A stretch of DNA of 64,000 nucleotides. It comes from Bacteriovoracaceae bacterium. Its GTDB lineage: Bacteria; Bdellovibrionota; Bacteriovoracia; Bacteriovoracales; Bacteriovoracaceae. The notes below the pieces were generated by a model. The model searched no databases. It had not been told where the DNA came from and saw only the letters and a list, made by a program, of their open reading frames with translations. Positions 6,762 through 16,429 of the stretch are shown here, piece after piece; the first letter of the stretch is position 1, and each line of letters opens with the position of its first letter. The position numbers were made by a program, and so were the translations under genes. Location: NCBI GenBank assembly GCA_013141065.1, contig JABFRR010000005.1:62001-126000 (forward strand), given 5' to 3'.

Positions 6762-6794
6762 AGTTTTAAGGCTAACACTTGAATTCTTAGTTTG

Positions 6795-7872
6795 CAGGAA
6801 TTCCCGGTGTAAATTTTTCCCACTCAAGATAAGAGAAAATATTTAATTTTTCGTAATGATTTATGCTTTCTGGCCTTCACAAATCATTTCTGGCCATCTA
6901 AAATGCTTTTCAGAGGTGTTTTATGGGGCGACAAGCAAATAAATTGAAAGTTGAAGAATGTAATGAAATTATTCTATCTGAATTTTCAAAATTTAAGGAA
7001 AAAAGACCAATTTTTGAAATACCTCTCAAGAATTTTTTAATGTCTAGCTTTGCGGTCTTTGCCCTAAAATCACCATCTCTTTTACAATTTGAAAATCAAT
7101 TGAAAGAACATAAAATTAGAATGCACAATCTCAACTCACTTTTTAAAATTGATAGAGTTCCGTCAGATACTCACTTAAGAGATATTTTAGAAACAGTAGA
7201 ATACAATCAGTATCGACCATTATTTCAAAGACTTTTTTTCATATATTCAAAGATCAAAAACGCTAGAGCAGTTTGAGTTTATGAAAATTAATGGTCAATC
7301 TCATTATTTATTAGCAACAGATGGATCTGGATATTTTCGATCGGAAAAATTAGTTTGTGACTGTTGCATGATTGAAGAACATTTTGATGAAAACAATAAA
7401 ATGACTCTTAAATTTGGACATAATATTTTGGCAGGATCAATTGTTCACCCAGATCTAAAGCAAGTTATTCCAATGTGCCCTGAACCCATTATGAGACTTG
7501 ATGGAAGTAGTAAAAACGATTCTGAACAAACAGCATTTAGAAGATTTTTAGCTGATTTTAAAAGAGAGCACCCGAAGTTAAAAATAATTTTCTTACTTGA
7601 TGCTTTGTATGCCAATGGACCTATTATAAAATTACTTCGAGAGTATGGTTATGAGTTTTTAATAGCAGTCAAAGAAACTAAAAGTCTTCTTTTTATGAGT
7701 GTAAAAGAGGGAGAGACTACTGGAGAAACCCAGTTTCACGAAAGAGTTTTTGAGTCTGGTGAAAAAGTTATAAAAACAACAAAAATGAATTACAGATTTG
7801 CAAACAATATAAGACTCCATCAAGACAAGGAAAGTCCATTTATAAATTTTGTTCAAGTTAAAGAAGTCACTG
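6795..7872 (+). mobile_element. IS4-like element, copy 1, 3' end missing
   Basis: Inverted partner of the complete element at 13768-15406. The left end begins CAGGAATTCCCGGTG. The copy matches the other until 7872 (sequence GTCACTG), where IS3-family copy A begins. The last ~560 bp of the element, including its right terminal repeat and target duplication, are absent from the window. The nine bases on its left (CTTAGTTTG, 6786-6794) would be half of the original target duplication. Confidence 0.9.
6923..7872 (+). pseudogene. IS4-like DDE transposase, truncated and frameshifted
   Basis: Transposase with RNase H-type DDE chemistry. Visible are DGSGYF (first Asp) and IIFLLDALYANGP (second Asp). 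The third acidic motif is lost with the missing 3' end. The reading frame breaks at the T7 run near 7223 and at CAAAAACGC near 7256, where restoring one A would join the two open segments 6923-7276 and 7281-7872. Downstream the frame runs a few codons into copy A before stopping at 7892. Not functional. Confidence 0.85.
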
Positions 7873-9966: not shown

Positions 9967-10091
9967 AGAAAAACTCCTTATACCCCAAATGTTTTTGCGA
10001 ATTTCGTACCAATATCATGTATTTTTTACCATACAAGGAAAAGTTTTTATCTCATGCTTCCGGACTGCAATGTCCCCTGAGACATGGGGTA

Positions 10092-10958
10092 ATGAAAAGT
10101 CTTCTTTTGTGCCTATTTTTATTTGTTTCTTGTTCAACAGCTTGGCAATCCCCAGTCAGGGAGCCGGCCACTACGTCTGAGTTCATGCACTTAGTTCTTG
10201 ATATCGATTGGACTATTGTCACGGAAATTAAAGATCCTCGTCAAATCGTTAAACCCCATCCCAGAGTGATAGAAGTTTTGGGTATTCAATATTTTATTAA
10301 TGAAGGATTAGAAGAATTAATCATTGAAGCTCTCAAGTATCCAGATGTGAAGATCTCGTTTTTTAGTGGAGGTAAGCGTGCGCGAAATAGTGAATTATTA
10401 AGTAAGATAAAACTTAAAGATGGGAGATCCTTAAAAGATATAGCGACAAATATTTTAAGTTTAGAAGAACTAGTTAAAAATGAGCTGGCACCTGAAAATT
10501 CACCATTTGCCACAAGGTTTAAAAAAGATCTGACTTTAATATCCAAAGATCTTTGGCAAATTACTATGCTGGATGACACTCCTAATTTTGTTTTAGATAC
10601 TTTTGAAAAACAAAGTGATTCTGTTTTTTTCATCGGAACTGCATTTGAATATTTTGATTCTTTTGAGAAAACCGAAGGCCACTCTGGAGAGTATGTACCA
10701 AAAAGTTATGAAGCATGGCTTTTAAATCGTAAAAAGTTATTTATACTAAAAGAGGCTTTTGTCGAATCCTATAGAGAATCAAAACGAGGAGAGGGAACTC
10801 TCTTAGAAGGAATGAAAAAACGGGAACGACTTCTGGATTTAAAATCCCATACGTGGAATGCCTATTCACGAAAACTTTATGCCAATGCCATGTTGTCTTT
10901 AGAAAAATATAAGAAAGTTAATTGTGGTGAAATGGCACTAGAACTTATCAGGCTATAG
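10092..10958 (+). CDS. HAD-superfamily lipoprotein
   Basis: A 288-residue predicted lipoprotein. The ATG at 10092 opens MKSLLLCLFLFVSC with the lipidated Cys at residue 14. The sequence LDIDWT (Asp37, Asp39) matches HAD motif I (DxDxT), SFFSGG fits motif II, and LDDTPN fits the acidic motif IV, so a metal-dependent phosphatase is likely. The frame is open upstream to 10017 through IS sequence, but those codons are IS-derived. The IS ends at 10089, two bases before the ATG, so the native leader is gone and GGGG at the IS end is the only purine-rich sequence near the start. It converges on the C11-like gene with a 6-bp overlap. Confidence 0.8.
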   Translation: MKSLLLCLFLFVSCSTAWQSPVREPATTSEFMHLVLDIDWTIVTEIKDPRQIVKPHPRVIEVLGIQYFINEGLEELIIEALKYPDVKISFFSGGKRARNSELLSKIKLKDGRSLKDIATNILSLEELVKNELAPENSPFATRFKKDLTLISKDLWQITMLDDTPNFVLDTFEKQSDSVFFIGTAFEYFDSFEKTEGHSGEYVPKSYEAWLLNRKKLFILKEAFVESYRESKRGEGTLLEGMKKRERLLDLKSHTWNAYSRKLYANAMLSLEKYKKVNCGEMALELIRL

Positions 10959-12356
10959 TTTTAACCAATTTACAGTATGGTTGAAATCCAATTCAAAATA
11001 ATCAATGGACGGTGTTGTTTGATAGAGTGTTATATTAAGCCCGGTGTACCTCTCAGCTTTTACCCCAACTCTCTGAGTATAAGCAGTATAAAGAAGAAAT
11101 TGTCCCTTTATTCTTGAGCTTGGTCGTAATTCAATGACATCTTGAAAGCGAATCAAATTTACAACTTCTGTAAGACGATTTTTTCCTGTTGAATCTAAAA
11201 AATAATATTGAAATGAATTAATTCCTGGAGCAAATGGTGAAATATAAGTAGAAAGGTTTTCAAATTTTTTTACAGGCCATTGTGCTTTTTGAGGGCCCAA
11301 AATAAAAAGCTTAGTTTTAAGAATTTCACTAAAAAGTGGATTGTCTAAATATTCTTCTTTAGTTCCATTTTGCCAATCGTTGAATCCAAATACCATAAGA
11401 GCGTTTGGTACTGGAGCTGATATTTTTAAGCGAGAGTTTGTTTTTAATTTTTTGACTGATTCAATATTCAATAATCTAATGAGTTCCGTTAATTCTTTGT
11501 CAGTAGCAGTATTTTTATTCATACTTCGCAATTCAATTAACATATGACCTAAATCGACTAGTTCAGATTTATCCATACTGAATTTTTTTTGAACTTTTAA
11601 TCTGAGCCTTTTTTGTTCTTCTGGTAAAAGAGAATTAATGATTTTTGGAACTTTCTTAAATAAATTTACAAAAGTCGATATTTCACGATTATCAAAAACA
11701 CTAATCGTTGCTGAACTTCGGCCGACAGCTTCAACTTGTTTGCCCTCGTTCAAGTATGAATATGATCCAATAAAATCATTGGCTAAATTGATAGCTGCTT
11801 CATCGATTTTACTAAACTGTGGTAATTCTGCTAATGAACTAAAGGGAAGACCTGCAGAAAATTCAGCTTCTTCAGATGCTATCGTTAAAGTGCTTGCTGC
11901 CCGAAGTTGAGTGAGAAATTCTAAGTTCGCTTGAAAACAAGCATCAAGCCAAATTATATCTAACTTAATTTTTGATTCACTTAGAAGTTTTTGAAAATCT
12001 TTAGTGGGTAAGTCTGTTAGCCCCATAGGCCCGTTTCCGTGCCCGTACATGACTAACATTTTTTTTGAAAGTGGATCTTTAAATGCAGTTTTCAAATAAG
12101 ATTTTAGTTTCTCTCGGTCGAGATTAGTTCCTAATTTGGGTCTAAAAGATGAAATTGATAGATAAGGTGATTTTTTTATAGACTGAAGCTCTTTTAAGTT
12201 TTTATCAACATCTTGTTGATAGTCTTCATTTTCTCGGCTCCCAAGAAAAACTGTCGCGACTTCCCATTTTGTTTCTGCAAAAAGATTTGCAGAAACAAAA
12301 ATGAGGAGAAATAAGGAGTACTTAAATAGTTTACTTAATTTTTTTAGGTGCTTCAT
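10953..12356 (-). CDS. secreted clostripain-like (C11-type) cysteine peptidase
   Basis: I chose the ATG at 12356 (MKHLKKLSKLFKYSLF), which opens a Sec signal peptide ending at NLFAE; the frame extends four codons further to a GTG at 12368. Counted from 12368, the sequence shows MLVMYGHGNG with His110 and IIWLDACFQ with Cys144. These are the two catalytic motifs of clan CD peptidases, closest to clostripain family C11 in spacing. A beta-rich C-terminal domain of about 170 residues follows (LKISAPVPNALMVFGF onward). It overlaps the upstream 447-residue gene by 26-38 bp, so the two form an operon. It may cleave after basic residues as C11 enzymes do, but the specificity pocket cannot be read here. 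Confidence 0.75.
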   Translation of the reverse strand: MKHLKKLSKLFKYSLFLLIFVSANLFAETKWEVATVFLGSRENEDYQQDVDKNLKELQSIKKSPYLSISSFRPKLGTNLDREKLKSYLKTAFKDPLSKKMLVMYGHGNGPMGLTDLPTKDFQKLLSESKIKLDIIWLDACFQANLEFLTQLRAASTLTIASEEAEFSAGLPFSSLAELPQFSKIDEAAINLANDFIGSYSYLNEGKQVEAVGRSSATISVFDNREISTFVNLFKKVPKIINSLLPEEQKRLRLKVQKKFSMDKSELVDLGHMLIELRSMNKNTATDKELTELIRLLNIESVKKLKTNSRLKISAPVPNALMVFGFNDWQNGTKEEYLDNPLFSEILKTKLFILGPQKAQWPVKKFENLSTYISPFAPGINSFQYYFLDSTGKNRLTEVVNLIRFQDVIELRPSSRIKGQFLLYTAYTQRVGVKAERYTGLNITLYQTTPSIDYFELDFNHTVNWLKL

Positions 12357-13674
12357 TGTCTTCATCACCGTTTACGCCAAAAAGATTATCTGAATCAATT
12401 TGTTTAGCTAAGCTCTGGTAACTAACAAACCCAGCACCTGTTTGAGCGTATCCCAGGGCTTTTTCGAGGGCTATTGCTATGGCCTTGTTTGAATCTGGCA
12501 TGACGTGAAAGTAAGTTGAGAGGCCATTCGTGAAAATATCTAATTTTTTAGTCCCTTTTGGGTCTTTAGTCGATATTTTACGATCGAAGTACATCTGATT
12601 GTAATATTTGTATGAAGTACAACTGTCAAAAAAGTAAATCTGGTATTTGTTTTTATTAAATTTAATCGACTCACCTAAATTTTGTTCAATCGAATCTAGA
12701 TCTAAGTGACCACCAAGTCCTGAGTGACCTCCATAAATCATAATCGCAGAATTTTCAAGTGCATCTTTATAGAACCAATGAAACCCTAGTGAATCTTCAT
12801 CGATAGCTGATGGAGCAAAGAAAAAACGATATACAATCTTATCTTTTTTGATTGTTTCAACAAAAGGCTTAGCTCCATTTAAAGTTTTAGCTATCGTACT
12901 AACTTCTGCAGCAGTCCACTTTTTTGCAGTATAACCTTTTTCAAGTAAATAATTTCTAAAATCACGATAGTTTTCTGCGTTGATGTCTCCACTTGTAAGT
13001 GGATTGCGTCCCTTTGTATTATCATCCATACCAAAGAGCACATGAATATGAATGTCACCTTTAGCGTCTGGAAGATTGTGATATTCTGGATAAGTTAATT
13101 TTGTATTTTCGTATCGACTTACTTTTGCTTTTACAATTTTGTAATCAATGTCTTTTTTAAGCTTACATCCTGGGCTATTTGGATTCCAAAAATACCAGAA
13201 GTCACCTTCTGATTGATAATGAGGATCTGTACACGGGCTGACTTCACCGACAAAGCTCGATGAATAGATAGTTTCAGGATTAATTGCTAAGATAATATCA
13301 TAAGTAGTTTTTGGACCTAATTCCAAAACAACATTACCTGAATACACATATCCAATTTCAAATGTAGATCCATTCTTCGAAAGAATTTTAATATTTGATA
13401 TGACGTGGTCTCCCTTAGGAACGGCCGTATATTGAGCCGCAGACATCGGGCCAATCGTGTGTTCGACTTGGGCTTCAATTAATCTTTTCATCGTTGTGAT
13501 TGTTGGAGTTTGAGTTGAGATGTGCTGAACAGTCCCATTGAAGTTAATCTTTGCTTCTGTTGAATTCGATCCAATGTAGAGCTTCTTTTCATTTTTACGC
13601 TGAATGGGTAAGGCCATAACAGTTGTTGAAACAAGCATTGTAACAAGAGACAATCCTAATAATCTATTAATCAT
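12331..13674 (-). CDS. secreted caspase-like/clan CD-like protein
   Basis: A 447-residue protein with signal peptide (MINRLLGLSLVTML, cleavage near VMALP). TGGAG precedes the ATG at 13674. The N-terminal half (to ~residue 190) is beta-rich with Cys148 and Cys170 that could pair. The C-terminal half has IMIYGGHSGLGG with His317 and IYFFDSC with Cys352, the His then Asp-x-Cys order of clan CD peptidases. The family is not one I can name. The next gene encodes a second protein with the same dyad, overlapping this one, so the pair probably acts together outside the cytoplasm. Confidence 0.65.
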   Translation of the reverse strand: MINRLLGLSLVTMLVSTTVMALPIQRKNEKKLYIGSNSTEAKINFNGTVQHISTQTPTITTMKRLIEAQVEHTIGPMSAAQYTAVPKGDHVISNIKILSKNGSTFEIGYVYSGNVVLELGPKTTYDIILAINPETIYSSSFVGEVSPCTDPHYQSEGDFWYFWNPNSPGCKLKKDIDYKIVKAKVSRYENTKLTYPEYHNLPDAKGDIHIHVLFGMDDNTKGRNPLTSGDINAENYRDFRNYLLEKGYTAKKWTAAEVSTIAKTLNGAKPFVETIKKDKIVYRFFFAPSAIDEDSLGFHWFYKDALENSAIMIYGGHSGLGGHLDLDSIEQNLGESIKFNKNKYQIYFFDSCTSYKYYNQMYFDRKISTKDPKGTKKLDIFTNGLSTYFHVMPDSNKAIAIALEKALGYAQTGAGFVSYQSLAKQIDSDNLFGVNGDEDNEAPKKIK

Positions 13675-13767: not shown

Positions 13768-15406
13768 CAGCAGTTCCCGGCCTCTTAGCCTGTCAACCCG
13801 ATTTAAAACTCATAGTGTTATAGGGTAATAAATTCACGATTTTTCGAAAAAAATTATTTTTGATGGTAAATGGCTTTGAAGAATAAAAAACAAATCAGAA
13901 CGGGCGTTAAAATTAACCTGTCTCTGGTGGCATTTCACGATAGTAAAGAAGGTAATAAAATTGATCCCAGCTAGATAATGGCACCCATTCAATAGCACTG
14001 GTTAAACTGCTCCATAAGCTTGATTTTTGCTTAAATTTTTCAACTAATTTTTTAAAAGTATAACAACTAATCTCTTGGATCTGGTCAACAAAAAATGCCA
14101 GAAACATACTCATAATAAAATTATGTGTTAAGTTTTTTTCACCATGCCCATAATTATGTTCTAAATTATAACCTCTATTCTTCAAAGTATTAAACGTTTC
14201 ATTTTCTATTTTCCAGCGCGTGCGACCTCCTTCTGCAAGTTGAACAATATTATTTTTGTAACTGCTATATCTGTAATAAATGTGAAATTACGTTCGAGCC
14301 TTTCTGCTTTTCCCTTTTTGCCAATCCATTCAGTGACTTCTTTAACTTGAACAAAATTTATAAATGGACTTTCCTTGTCTTGATGGAGTCTTATATTGTT
14401 TGCAAATCTGTAATTCATTTTTGTTGTTTTTATAACTTTTCACCAGACTCAAAAACTCTTTCGTGAAACTGGGTTTCTCCAGTAGTCTCTCCCTCTTTTA
14501 CACTCATAAAAAGAAGACTTTTTAGTTTCTTTGACTGCTATTAAAAACTCATAACCATACTCTCGAAGTAATTTTATAATAGGTCCATTGGCATACAAAG
14601 CATCAAGTAAGAAAATTAATTTTAACTTCGGGTGCTCTCTTTTAAAATCAGCTAAAAATCTTCTAAATGCTGTTTGTTCAGAATCGTTTTTACTACTTCC
14701 ATCAAGTCTCATAATGGGTTCAGGGCACATTGGAATAACTTGCTTTAGATCTGGGTGAACAATTGATCCTGCCAAAATATTATGTCCAAATTTAAGAGTC
14801 ATTTTATTGTTTTCATCAAAATGTTCTTCAATCATGCAACAGTCACAAACTAATTTTTCCGATCGAAAATATCCAGATCCATCTGTTGCTAATAAATAAT
14901 GAGATTGACCATTAATTTTCATAAACTCAAACTGCTCTAGCGTTTTTGATCTTTGAATATATGAAAAAGTCTTTGAAATAATGGTCGATACTGATTGTAT
15001 TCTACTGTTTCTAAAATATCTCTTAAGTGAGTATCTGACGGAACTCTATCAATTTTAAAAAGTGAGTTGAGATTGTGCATTCTAATTTTATGTTCTTTCA
15101 ATTGATTTTCAAATTGTAAAAGAGATGGTGATTTTAGGGCAAAGACCGCAAAGCTAGACATTAAAAAATTCTTGAGAGGTATTTCAAAAATTGGTCTTTT
15201 TTCCTTAAATTTTGAAAATTCAGATAGAATAATTTCATTACATTCTTCAACTTTCAATTTATTTGCTTGTCGCCCCATAAAACACCTCTGAAAAGCATTT
15301 TAGATGGCCAGAAATGATTTGTGAAGGCCAGAAAGCATAAATCATTACGAAAAATTAAATATTTTCTCTTATCTTGAGTGGGAAAAATTTACACCGGGAA
15401 TTCCTG
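13768..15406 (-). mobile_element. IS4-like element, copy 2, complete
   Basis: A 1639-bp element. Its ends read inward CAGCAGTTCCCGG and CAGGAATTCCCGG, identical at 11 of 13 positions, and it is flanked by a perfect 9-bp duplication. It carries a single transposase gene leftward. Removing the element and one duplication restores an rlmN gene ending CTT ATT GAA TAG. Confidence 0.93.
13913..15278 (-). pseudogene. IS4-like DDE transposase with several frameshifts
   Basis: The full-length coding region is present, starting MGRQANKLKVEE at 15278 and ending MPPETG at 13913, about 455 codons if restored. Motifs are DGSGYF, FLLDALYANGP, and, in another frame, RWKIENETFNTLKN, which is the third acidic region. 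Breaks are at CAAAAACGC (shared with copy 1), a five-A run near 14522 where copy 1 has four, a four-A run near 14440 where copy 1 has five, and CAAAAATAAT near 14250. All lie in A runs. Confidence 0.88.
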
Positions 15407-16429
15407 TTCAATAAGGGAATTAAGCTGGCCACATGCGGCCAGTATTTCACTGCCCTTAGTGGTTCTAATCATAGTTCGTAGTTTAAGTGCTACTAATTTT
15501 TCTTTAAATTCCAGGGTGTCTTCCTCAGTAGGTCTTTGAAATTCGCTACCTGGGAAGGGATTAAAAGGAATAATATTTATTAAGGCCCGTCTATTTGTCA
15601 GCCATTTTGAAAGTTCTAGGGCATCTTCAGATCGATTATTCAAATCTTTTATCAGCAAGTATTCATAGGTAATAAATTGCTTTTTTTTAAGGTCTAATTT
15701 GTCAAATTCGAAAAAGATATCTTCTAAGGGAAAGTGCTGATTGATAGGGATGAGTCTTTTTCTAATATCATTAAATGGAGAGTGTAGTGAAAGAGCTATA
15801 TTAATTTGAGGGTAGTGGGAAAGTTTTTTTATTCCTGGTAAATAGCCTGCTGTTGAGAGTGTTATTTGTCTTGGACCGACTGCTGCGCCCATGGGTTCCA
15901 TTAAAACCTGAATTGATTTTAAGACTTCGTCACTATTATGTAGTGGTTCACCTTGCCCCATGAAAACAATATTTGGATTTTTAACTCTTTCGTCGCTTTG
16001 ACTTTGAAGGTATTGACGAGCAACCAGAAATTGACCAACGATTTCTGAACTCTTTAAATTTCTTTTGAGTCCCATTTTTCCGGTGTAGCAAAAGCTACAA
16101 TTCATTGCACATCCAACCTGCGAGGATAAGCATACTGTGTATTTTTTAAAAAATGGAATAAGCACTGTTTCTACTTGGTTTCCGTCTTCGAGGCCCATGA
16201 GAAACTTAATCGTTCCATCTTCAGATGTAGTGATTTTATTTATAACAGGTACTGAATAATCGAAGGTTTTTTTAAGTAAAAGTGAAAGAGAGTTACTGAG
16301 TTCTTGATTAAATTTGTTTTTATAAATTTGTTGGAAAATGATTGAAGACAATTGAGTACTTACATCGTTCAGTCTTAAAAATAAATTAAGTTCTGCTTGA
16401 GTTTGAGAAAAGATTGAAGGCTTTAACAT
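15392..16429 (-). CDS. rlmN: 23S rRNA/tRNA adenine-C2 methyltransferase RlmN
   Basis: Radical SAM enzyme that methylates A2503 of 23S rRNA and A37 of some tRNAs. It shows the [4Fe-4S] motif CAMNCSFC, the SAM-binding region FMGQGEPLHN, and the C-terminal methyl-transfer Cys in EILAACGQL. At 346 residues it is slightly shorter than E. coli RlmN, mostly at the N-terminus. The last five residues (QEFPV) and the stop codon come from the end of the IS4-like element; the native protein would have ended ...NSLIE, as shown by the duplicated target. The enzyme should therefore remain functional. It is divergent from the HD response regulator gene with a 62-bp gap. Confidence 0.92.
15407..15415. repeat. 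9-bp target-site duplication, right copy
   Basis: TTCAATAAG, an exact repeat of 13759-13767. It spans the last codons of native rlmN on the reverse strand (CTT ATT GAA). Confidence 0.92.

Follow-up and report, generated by a model that had tools for sequence, protein, structure and literature searches.

Analysis of a 64,000-nucleotide stretch of the genome of a Bacteriovoracaceae bacterium (contig JABFRR010000005.1, positions 62,001 to 126,000 of the forward strand; hereafter the window) revealed a pair of overlapping genes, here called A and B, which very probably encode two exported peptidases of clan CD, and we tentatively propose that the product of B trims the product of A. According to the list of open reading frames, A lies upstream of B, head to tail and with both on the minus strand, and B starts inside the 3' end of A, at an ATG (12365) or a GTG (12368), which results in an overlap of 35-38 nucleotides. 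Both deduced proteins begin with a basic stretch followed by a hydrophobic core and a small-residue end, read here as signal peptides; signal peptides and lipoboxes were called by eye or by pattern throughout this work, and export of A and B is a prediction from their sequences. A first-pass annotation of this DNA had described an overlapping gene pair with signal peptides and with a clan-CD-type His and Cys in each product. The open reading frames, motifs and coordinates are as it claimed, export being judged by eye, with GGH317SG and DSC352 in A and a His and D-A-C in B, and the His110/Cys144 that it gave for B are right when counted from the GTG, corresponding to His109/Cys143 in the numbering from the ATG used here. 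As called, 11 of the 13 A-B pairs that we found overlap, by 1 to 112 nucleotides (sizes in L032 and L200 being inflated by over-long start calls), and the genes of the remaining two pairs are 8 and 36 nucleotides apart; translational coupling of A and B is therefore likely. The features of the pair are as follows.

12331..13674, minus strand: gene A, predicted exported caspase-fold protein of 447 residues, family without a name (open reading frame; no Pfam or NCBIfam match; fold model)
13612..13674, minus strand: signal peptide of A, residues 1-21 (by eye)
13576..13590, minus strand: EKKLY, residues 29-33 of A, pair-specific dibasic tag and proposed cleavage site for B
13075..13575, minus strand: beta-rich N-terminal domain of A, about residues 34-200, with conserved Cys148 and Cys170 and a WYFWNP loop (conservation; secondary structure of the model)
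12355..13065, minus strand: predicted caspase-like catalytic domain of A, about residues 204-440 (structural matches)
12985..12987, minus strand: Asp230 of A, start of helix alpha1, proposed S1 acid (conservation; position compared with gingipain Asp163)
12724..12726, minus strand: His317 of A, predicted catalytic
12619..12621, minus strand: Cys352 of A, predicted nucleophile
12355..12369, minus strand: C-terminal GDEDN motif of A
12331..12365, minus strand: stretch shared by the 3' end of A and the 5' end of B
10953..12365, minus strand: gene B, predicted exported C11 (clostripain family) peptidase of 470 residues
12276..12365, minus strand: signal peptide of B, residues 1-30 (by eye)
12039..12041, minus strand: His109 of B, predicted catalytic
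11937..11945, minus strand: Asp141-Ala-Cys143 of B, predicted S1 Asp and nucleophile
11025..11438, minus strand: beta-rich domain of B, about residues 310-447, before the C-terminal end (model)

Protein B is a C11 peptidase by sequence profile and predicted fold. It matched the Pfam C11 model PF03415 with 61.2 bits (cut-off 25.8) and an expectation value (E) of 1.7e-16, and a profile of seven B sequences found C11 structures among the Protein Data Bank sequences, with 6n9j at 2.3e-12. The AlphaFold2 model of B, with a mean predicted local distance difference test (pLDDT) of 76.5, matched clostripain with a Z of 26.3 over 300 residues and 6n9j with a Z of 25.2; peptide asparaginyl ligases were also among its structural matches. 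His-Gly and D-[A/S]-C were read off the alignment in all 13 paired B proteins, including those of G289-G291, G299 and G367, on which a regular-expression scan for the dyad had failed (B of L201 is cut by a contig end). In PmC11, the Asp two residues before the Cys (Asp177) lines the S1 pocket, and Arg or Lys is preferred, according to the available part of that report (PMC4850288); from the corresponding Asp alone, B is predicted to cleave after Lys or Arg. Protein B thus resembles clostripain, PmC11 and fragipain in sequence profile, dyad, the S1 Asp two residues before the Cys, and fold. It differs from them in that a beta-rich domain, about 140 residues long, precedes the C-terminal end of most B proteins, and in the genetic linkage of its gene to A. 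Also, His and Cys are 34 residues apart in B of the window but 46 in PmC11, whose processing site, Lys147, lies within that stretch (PMC4850288). In the model, the first strand of B directly follows the signal peptide, so that nothing in the N-terminal region of B looks like an activation site. One paired B (L205:4664-5761) is only 365 residues long, and it has the C11 core without the beta-rich domain.

For protein A, no match was found among the models of Pfam or NCBIfam, and, up to an E of 1, the C11 model was absent from the families obtained for A and for the alignment of its 43 members, so the C11 resemblance is limited to B, as had been stated in the first-pass annotation. Similarly, the remaining sequences of the two proteins are dissimilar, as it had also noted (hhalign profile-profile probability 0.7%), and this, together with the invariant dyad described below, rules out the idea that A is a degenerate paralogue of the C11 protein B. 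Weak matches to Pfam C25 occurred in 7 of the 43 relatives (best E 0.042) and to C50 in one (E 0.36), and A is not a C50 protein by sequence model. In an alignment of 86 A proteins, a deduplicated set that holds part of the matching loci, Tyr314, Gly316, His317, Gln345 and Cys352 are invariant (His317 and Cys352 also in 64 of 64 relatives in a first alignment). Of the 86 rows, 84 keep Asp230, 83 keep Cys148 and 85 keep Cys170, and 70 have a GDEDN-like tail by pattern. Because the dyad stays constant in a family whose identity otherwise falls to about 30%, catalysis by A can be argued. Clan CD peptidases include caspases, separase, gingipains and clostripain, and A has the Gly before the catalytic-type His and the conserved Cys after a hydrophobic strand that mark this clan. 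Since these motifs and the predicted fold are present and no family sequence model matches above cut-off, A probably represents an undescribed family of clan CD and is probably active as an exported peptidase. Eight families of this clan are listed for MEROPS in the part of a 2025 review available (PMC12445089), and no description of family A or of the A-B pair was found in the titles and abstract openings searched, a literature in which subscription papers were mostly outside coverage. Within the family, a divergent branch (L137-L140, L150, L151, L153 and L154; f3, f8 and f10) ends about where GDEDN would begin and still has the His and the Cys. Two long members of 655-657 residues (L040:5857-7824 and L145:5355-7328) extend some 170-180 residues past GDEDN at the C-terminus.

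In the AlphaFold2 model of A (pLDDT 82.6), the N-terminal domain is rich in beta strands, and an alpha/beta domain begins near residue 204. When candidates from Foldseek were rescored with VIA-align, a tool that flags a Z below 8 as possibly a common arrangement, five separase entries came first with Z values of 10.9 to 10.2 (best root-mean-square deviation 3.1, 167 residues aligned), followed by gingipain R (7.7), caspases (about 7.4) and C11 (6.5), and unrelated folds scored 6.7 at best and then downward. Plain Foldseek placed small GTPases at the top with poor TM-scores and was uninformative; the caspase-like call for A is therefore based on VIA-align, motifs and secondary-structure order, from which the catalytic domain is predicted to be caspase-like and nearest to separase. 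Both predicted folds being caspase-like, and His and Cys being conserved in 86 of 86 A and 13 of 13 B proteins, the structure prediction and orthologue comparison proposed in the first-pass annotation came out in favour of a clan CD pair. Like separase (C50), its best structural match, A has the Gly-His motif and the strand-Cys order. In contrast to separase, A is bacterial, predicted to be exported and only 447 residues long, and it has a different N-terminal domain: eukaryotic separase carries a large helical N-terminal region, whereas in A the catalytic domain is preceded by about 170 residues of mainly beta structure. With gingipain (C25), A shares the status of a putatively exported bacterial clan CD peptidase and a comparable acid after strand beta1; however, there is no significant sequence match to gingipain, and the N-terminal domain of A was not recognised. 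In the model, Asp230 follows the first strand and begins the first helix, which is where the S1 Asp163 of gingipain R and the separase acid sit, as described in the available part of the report (PMC4626109), and by analogy A may also prefer a basic residue at P1.

Relatives of A were found in 126 of 368 genomes of the window's phylum, belonging to 75 of 181 genera (E <= 0.001), and 242 of the 368 genomes, many of them incomplete, gave no match. Outside the phylum, 10 of 198 sampled genomes of Elusimicrobiota contained a relative, one of them being the genome of the Elusimicrobia record from which the sampling started, and a pattern-based search of a genome collection returned 42 loci with titles that were mostly Bdellovibrionota-type and Elusimicrobia. 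The profile of B matched 30 of the 368 genomes at E <= 1e-12, of which 13 were set apart at E <= 1.3e-50 while the best of the others ranged from 7.7e-16 to 9.7e-13. These 13 genomes belong to six families (f1, f3, f14, f15, f18 and f29), and in all of them the B-type gene lies directly downstream of A on the same strand. The coupling of the pair, for which the first-pass annotation had suggested a search of other genomes, is therefore real: the same gene order recurs in 13 genomes with B always next after A. Among the neighbours of A in 85 deduplicated loci (window not counted), B was the one present in most loci (12) and always at position +1, and the other clusters among the 25 commonest (at least 3 loci each) were scattered or confined to close relatives, giving no sign of a shared operon function. 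In the genus of the window, A occurs in 7 of 14 genomes and B in 6 of these 7. An HrpB-like helicase gene directly follows A in the seventh (G013), and this is the gene that follows B in L032, L034 and L035.

In a tree of the 86 A proteins, the 13 paired ones all fall into one group of 27 rows (support 95/88) together with 14 unpaired ones, a distribution that implies either a small number of gains of B with several losses or movement of B together with A. Pairwise identities of A and B covary (r 0.79, from 78 non-independent pairs). B is an optional accessory partner, as A occurs without B in most A genomes. The first-pass annotation had imagined an enzyme with a divergent partner; the idea of a partner holds, with the roles reversed, in that A constitutes a widespread family of its own and the C11 gene B is the optional member. 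With the pair genomes excluded, a C11 gene was present in 61 of 113 A genomes and in 74 of 242 others (odds ratio 2.7, p 3.6e-5), and by block p was 0.16 in f1, 0.46 in f3 and 2.5e-4 in the remaining families together, so that a loose C11-A association exists, with p values that ignore kinship, as ancestry and genome completeness were not controlled.

Comparison of the 13 paired with the 14 unpaired A proteins of the 27-row group revealed a stretch specific to the paired ones at residues 29-32 of the window's A. Every paired A protein whose N-terminus is intact (12 of 12) has the motif E-[K/R]-K-L-Y, a few to some 25 residues past the signal peptide, and none of the 72 unpaired rows examined has it. 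Two rows that are truncated at the N-terminus by contig ends, L205 (paired) and L207 (unpaired), are excluded from this count, and tree tests also exclude L055 and L066. One genome, G367, provides an internal contrast, as its paired A (L200) has the tag, which is missing from its unpaired A (L166, identical in sequence to L038). Upstream of the tag, the paired A at L200 also has a lipobox-like sequence, so that a cut at the tag would free this A from the membrane. In the genome of the window, a degenerate DNA pattern for the motif had 30 hits, compared with 26 for the reversed pattern, and ten of the hits encode E[KR]KLY; among these, only A bears the motif after a signal peptide, the others falling within very short frames or close to where a long frame ends. 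In the group that contains the Elusimicrobia proteins, a basic residue precedes the early aromatic strand motif in 25 of 26 rows by pattern, after a spacer of about 35 residues, which at the Elusimicrobia loci (L043-L070) ends in [K/R]-W-[Y/F]-G. This spacer suggests that the N-terminus of A is trimmed even in the absence of B. Family A may thus commonly have a basic trimming site, with B as a dedicated trimmer in one branch.

From these observations we propose a relay in which A and B would both be exported and, in a minority of species, B would be co-translated with A. B, as a Lys/Arg-specific enzyme without an apparent prodomain, would cut A at E-[K/R]-K|L-Y (EKK|LY in the window) and remove its N-terminal spacer. 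A would thereby acquire a defined N-terminus, and any A that is a lipoprotein would be released from the membrane. Mature A would then cleave its own envelope or extracellular target. A precedent is fragipain, a C11 enzyme of Bacteroides that processes two unrelated exported protoxins, as described in the part of the report available (PMC8406203). Like fragipain, B would clip another exported protein. However, according to the same part of that report one of the fragipain targets is encoded on an island that does not include the fragipain gene (PMC8406203), whereas the C11 gene of the A-B system directly follows and overlaps the gene of its proposed target, a caspase-fold protease in its own right. 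Both the cut made in A by B at the tag and its effect on the activity or the release of A are inferred from sequence. The restriction of E[KR]KLY to paired A lends circumstantial support to the zymogen activator suggested in the first-pass annotation; its second suggestion, a predatory role, found no specific support, since A also occurs in Elusimicrobiota and no match to it was found in 242 of the 368 genomes searched in its own phylum.

Several points weigh against the relay. The tag and the pairing change together only three times, or four in a tree built without the N-terminal 60 residues, and the independent contrasts amount to two or one on supported branches and to three or four on all branches. 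With fewer than six contrasts, significance of the tag-pairing link is unreachable, and all contrasts agree with the tag. Also, the tag was spotted by inspection, and the unpaired rows are a part of all A proteins. By pattern, 34 of the 72 unpaired A proteins have a basic residue just before the early aromatic strand motif, and a basic N-terminal site may therefore be general and cut by A itself or by a third protease. Fragipain cuts at Arg-Ala and not at Lys-Leu (PMC8406203). A C11 match (E <= 0.001) occurs in 74 of the 126 A-bearing genomes and in none of the other 52, so that A does not generally need a C11 enzyme, and a dependence of A on some C11 elsewhere in the genome is rejected on the same count. 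Finally, separase alone exceeds a Z of 8 among the structural matches of A. On balance, the complete relay, in which B trims A at the tag and A then acts on a target, has in our estimate somewhat less than an even chance of being right. It is possible, if rather doubtful, that the full statement applies, namely that a dedicated clostripain-type enzyme clips an exported protease of separase-like fold at a motif present only beside the clipper's gene, and that the clipped protein belongs to an unnamed large bacterial clan CD family.

The main rival is that A and B are parallel active proteases, exported and co-expressed to act on the same substrates without processing each other, the tag having another role such as docking. 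Conservation of both dyads is in line with parallel action, as is the ability of A to work without B (126 genomes with A, 13 with B), but the restriction of E[KR]KLY to paired A is not explained by it, and we regard it as a serious, if on the whole unlikely, explanation. It is less probable, though still worth considering, that A removes its own N-terminal spacer at a basic site and may also activate B. The position of Asp230, at the place of the S1 Asp of gingipain R (PMC4626109), makes a basic P1 possible, and the basic residue before the first aromatic strand in nearly half of the unpaired A proteins would suit self-trimming; however, the full dibasic tag tracks B and not A, and the model of B offers no N-terminal site at which it might be activated. 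Quite improbable is a third reading, in which A would be a transpeptidase or ligase of caspase fold that acts on envelope proteins, and B would supply the cut substrates. The caspase fold also supports ligases, as the asparaginyl ligases among the matches of B illustrate, and the N-terminal domain and GDEDN tail of A are conserved, but the neighbour clusters listed for the 85 loci include no evident substrate gene or sorting partner. Mere chance or hitchhiking is the least probable account of the A-B adjacency, for although the helicase gene takes the place of B in G013 and the confinement of paired A to one 27-row clade means that few gains are needed, all 13 B orthologues, in six families, adjoin A while other neighbours are scattered or restricted to close relatives.

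Two further roles for A were considered and rejected. PADLOC returned nothing for B and, for A, only a 17-residue Cas2 match (E 0.021), which does not speak for a defence protein. As a mobile or phage gene, A had no match in a plasmid collection and a relative in none of 18 candidate viral stretches, the phage collection not being searched.

In the surroundings of the pair, two near-identical insertion-sequence copies in inverted orientation (window 6786-7872 and 14331-15415, arms 91-100% complementary) flank about 6.5 kb that hold A and B; their transposase frame is split, and the match to a DDE transposase is weak, just under the Pfam cut-off. In a relative (L031), a radical-SAM gene, A, B and a phosphatase-like gene are consecutive without an insertion, and the flanking in the window is therefore probably recent and incidental. 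The gene at 10017-10958 (plus strand) is convergent with B and has a weak match to NIF/HAD-type phosphatases (E 0.00081, below cut-off), and homologues of it with 42-46% identity are found near the pair in three loci (L031, L032 and L035).

In summary, family A is a well conserved, putatively exported protein family that is present in about a third of the searched genomes of its phylum and is without a Pfam or NCBIfam model. It would add to clan CD a bacterial branch whose predicted fold is nearest to that of a eukaryotic member, and it can be annotated from the data presented here. If the proposed relay is true, the A-B pair would represent a simple and testable case in which one protease of caspase fold processes another outside the cytoplasm, at a site that has been predicted.

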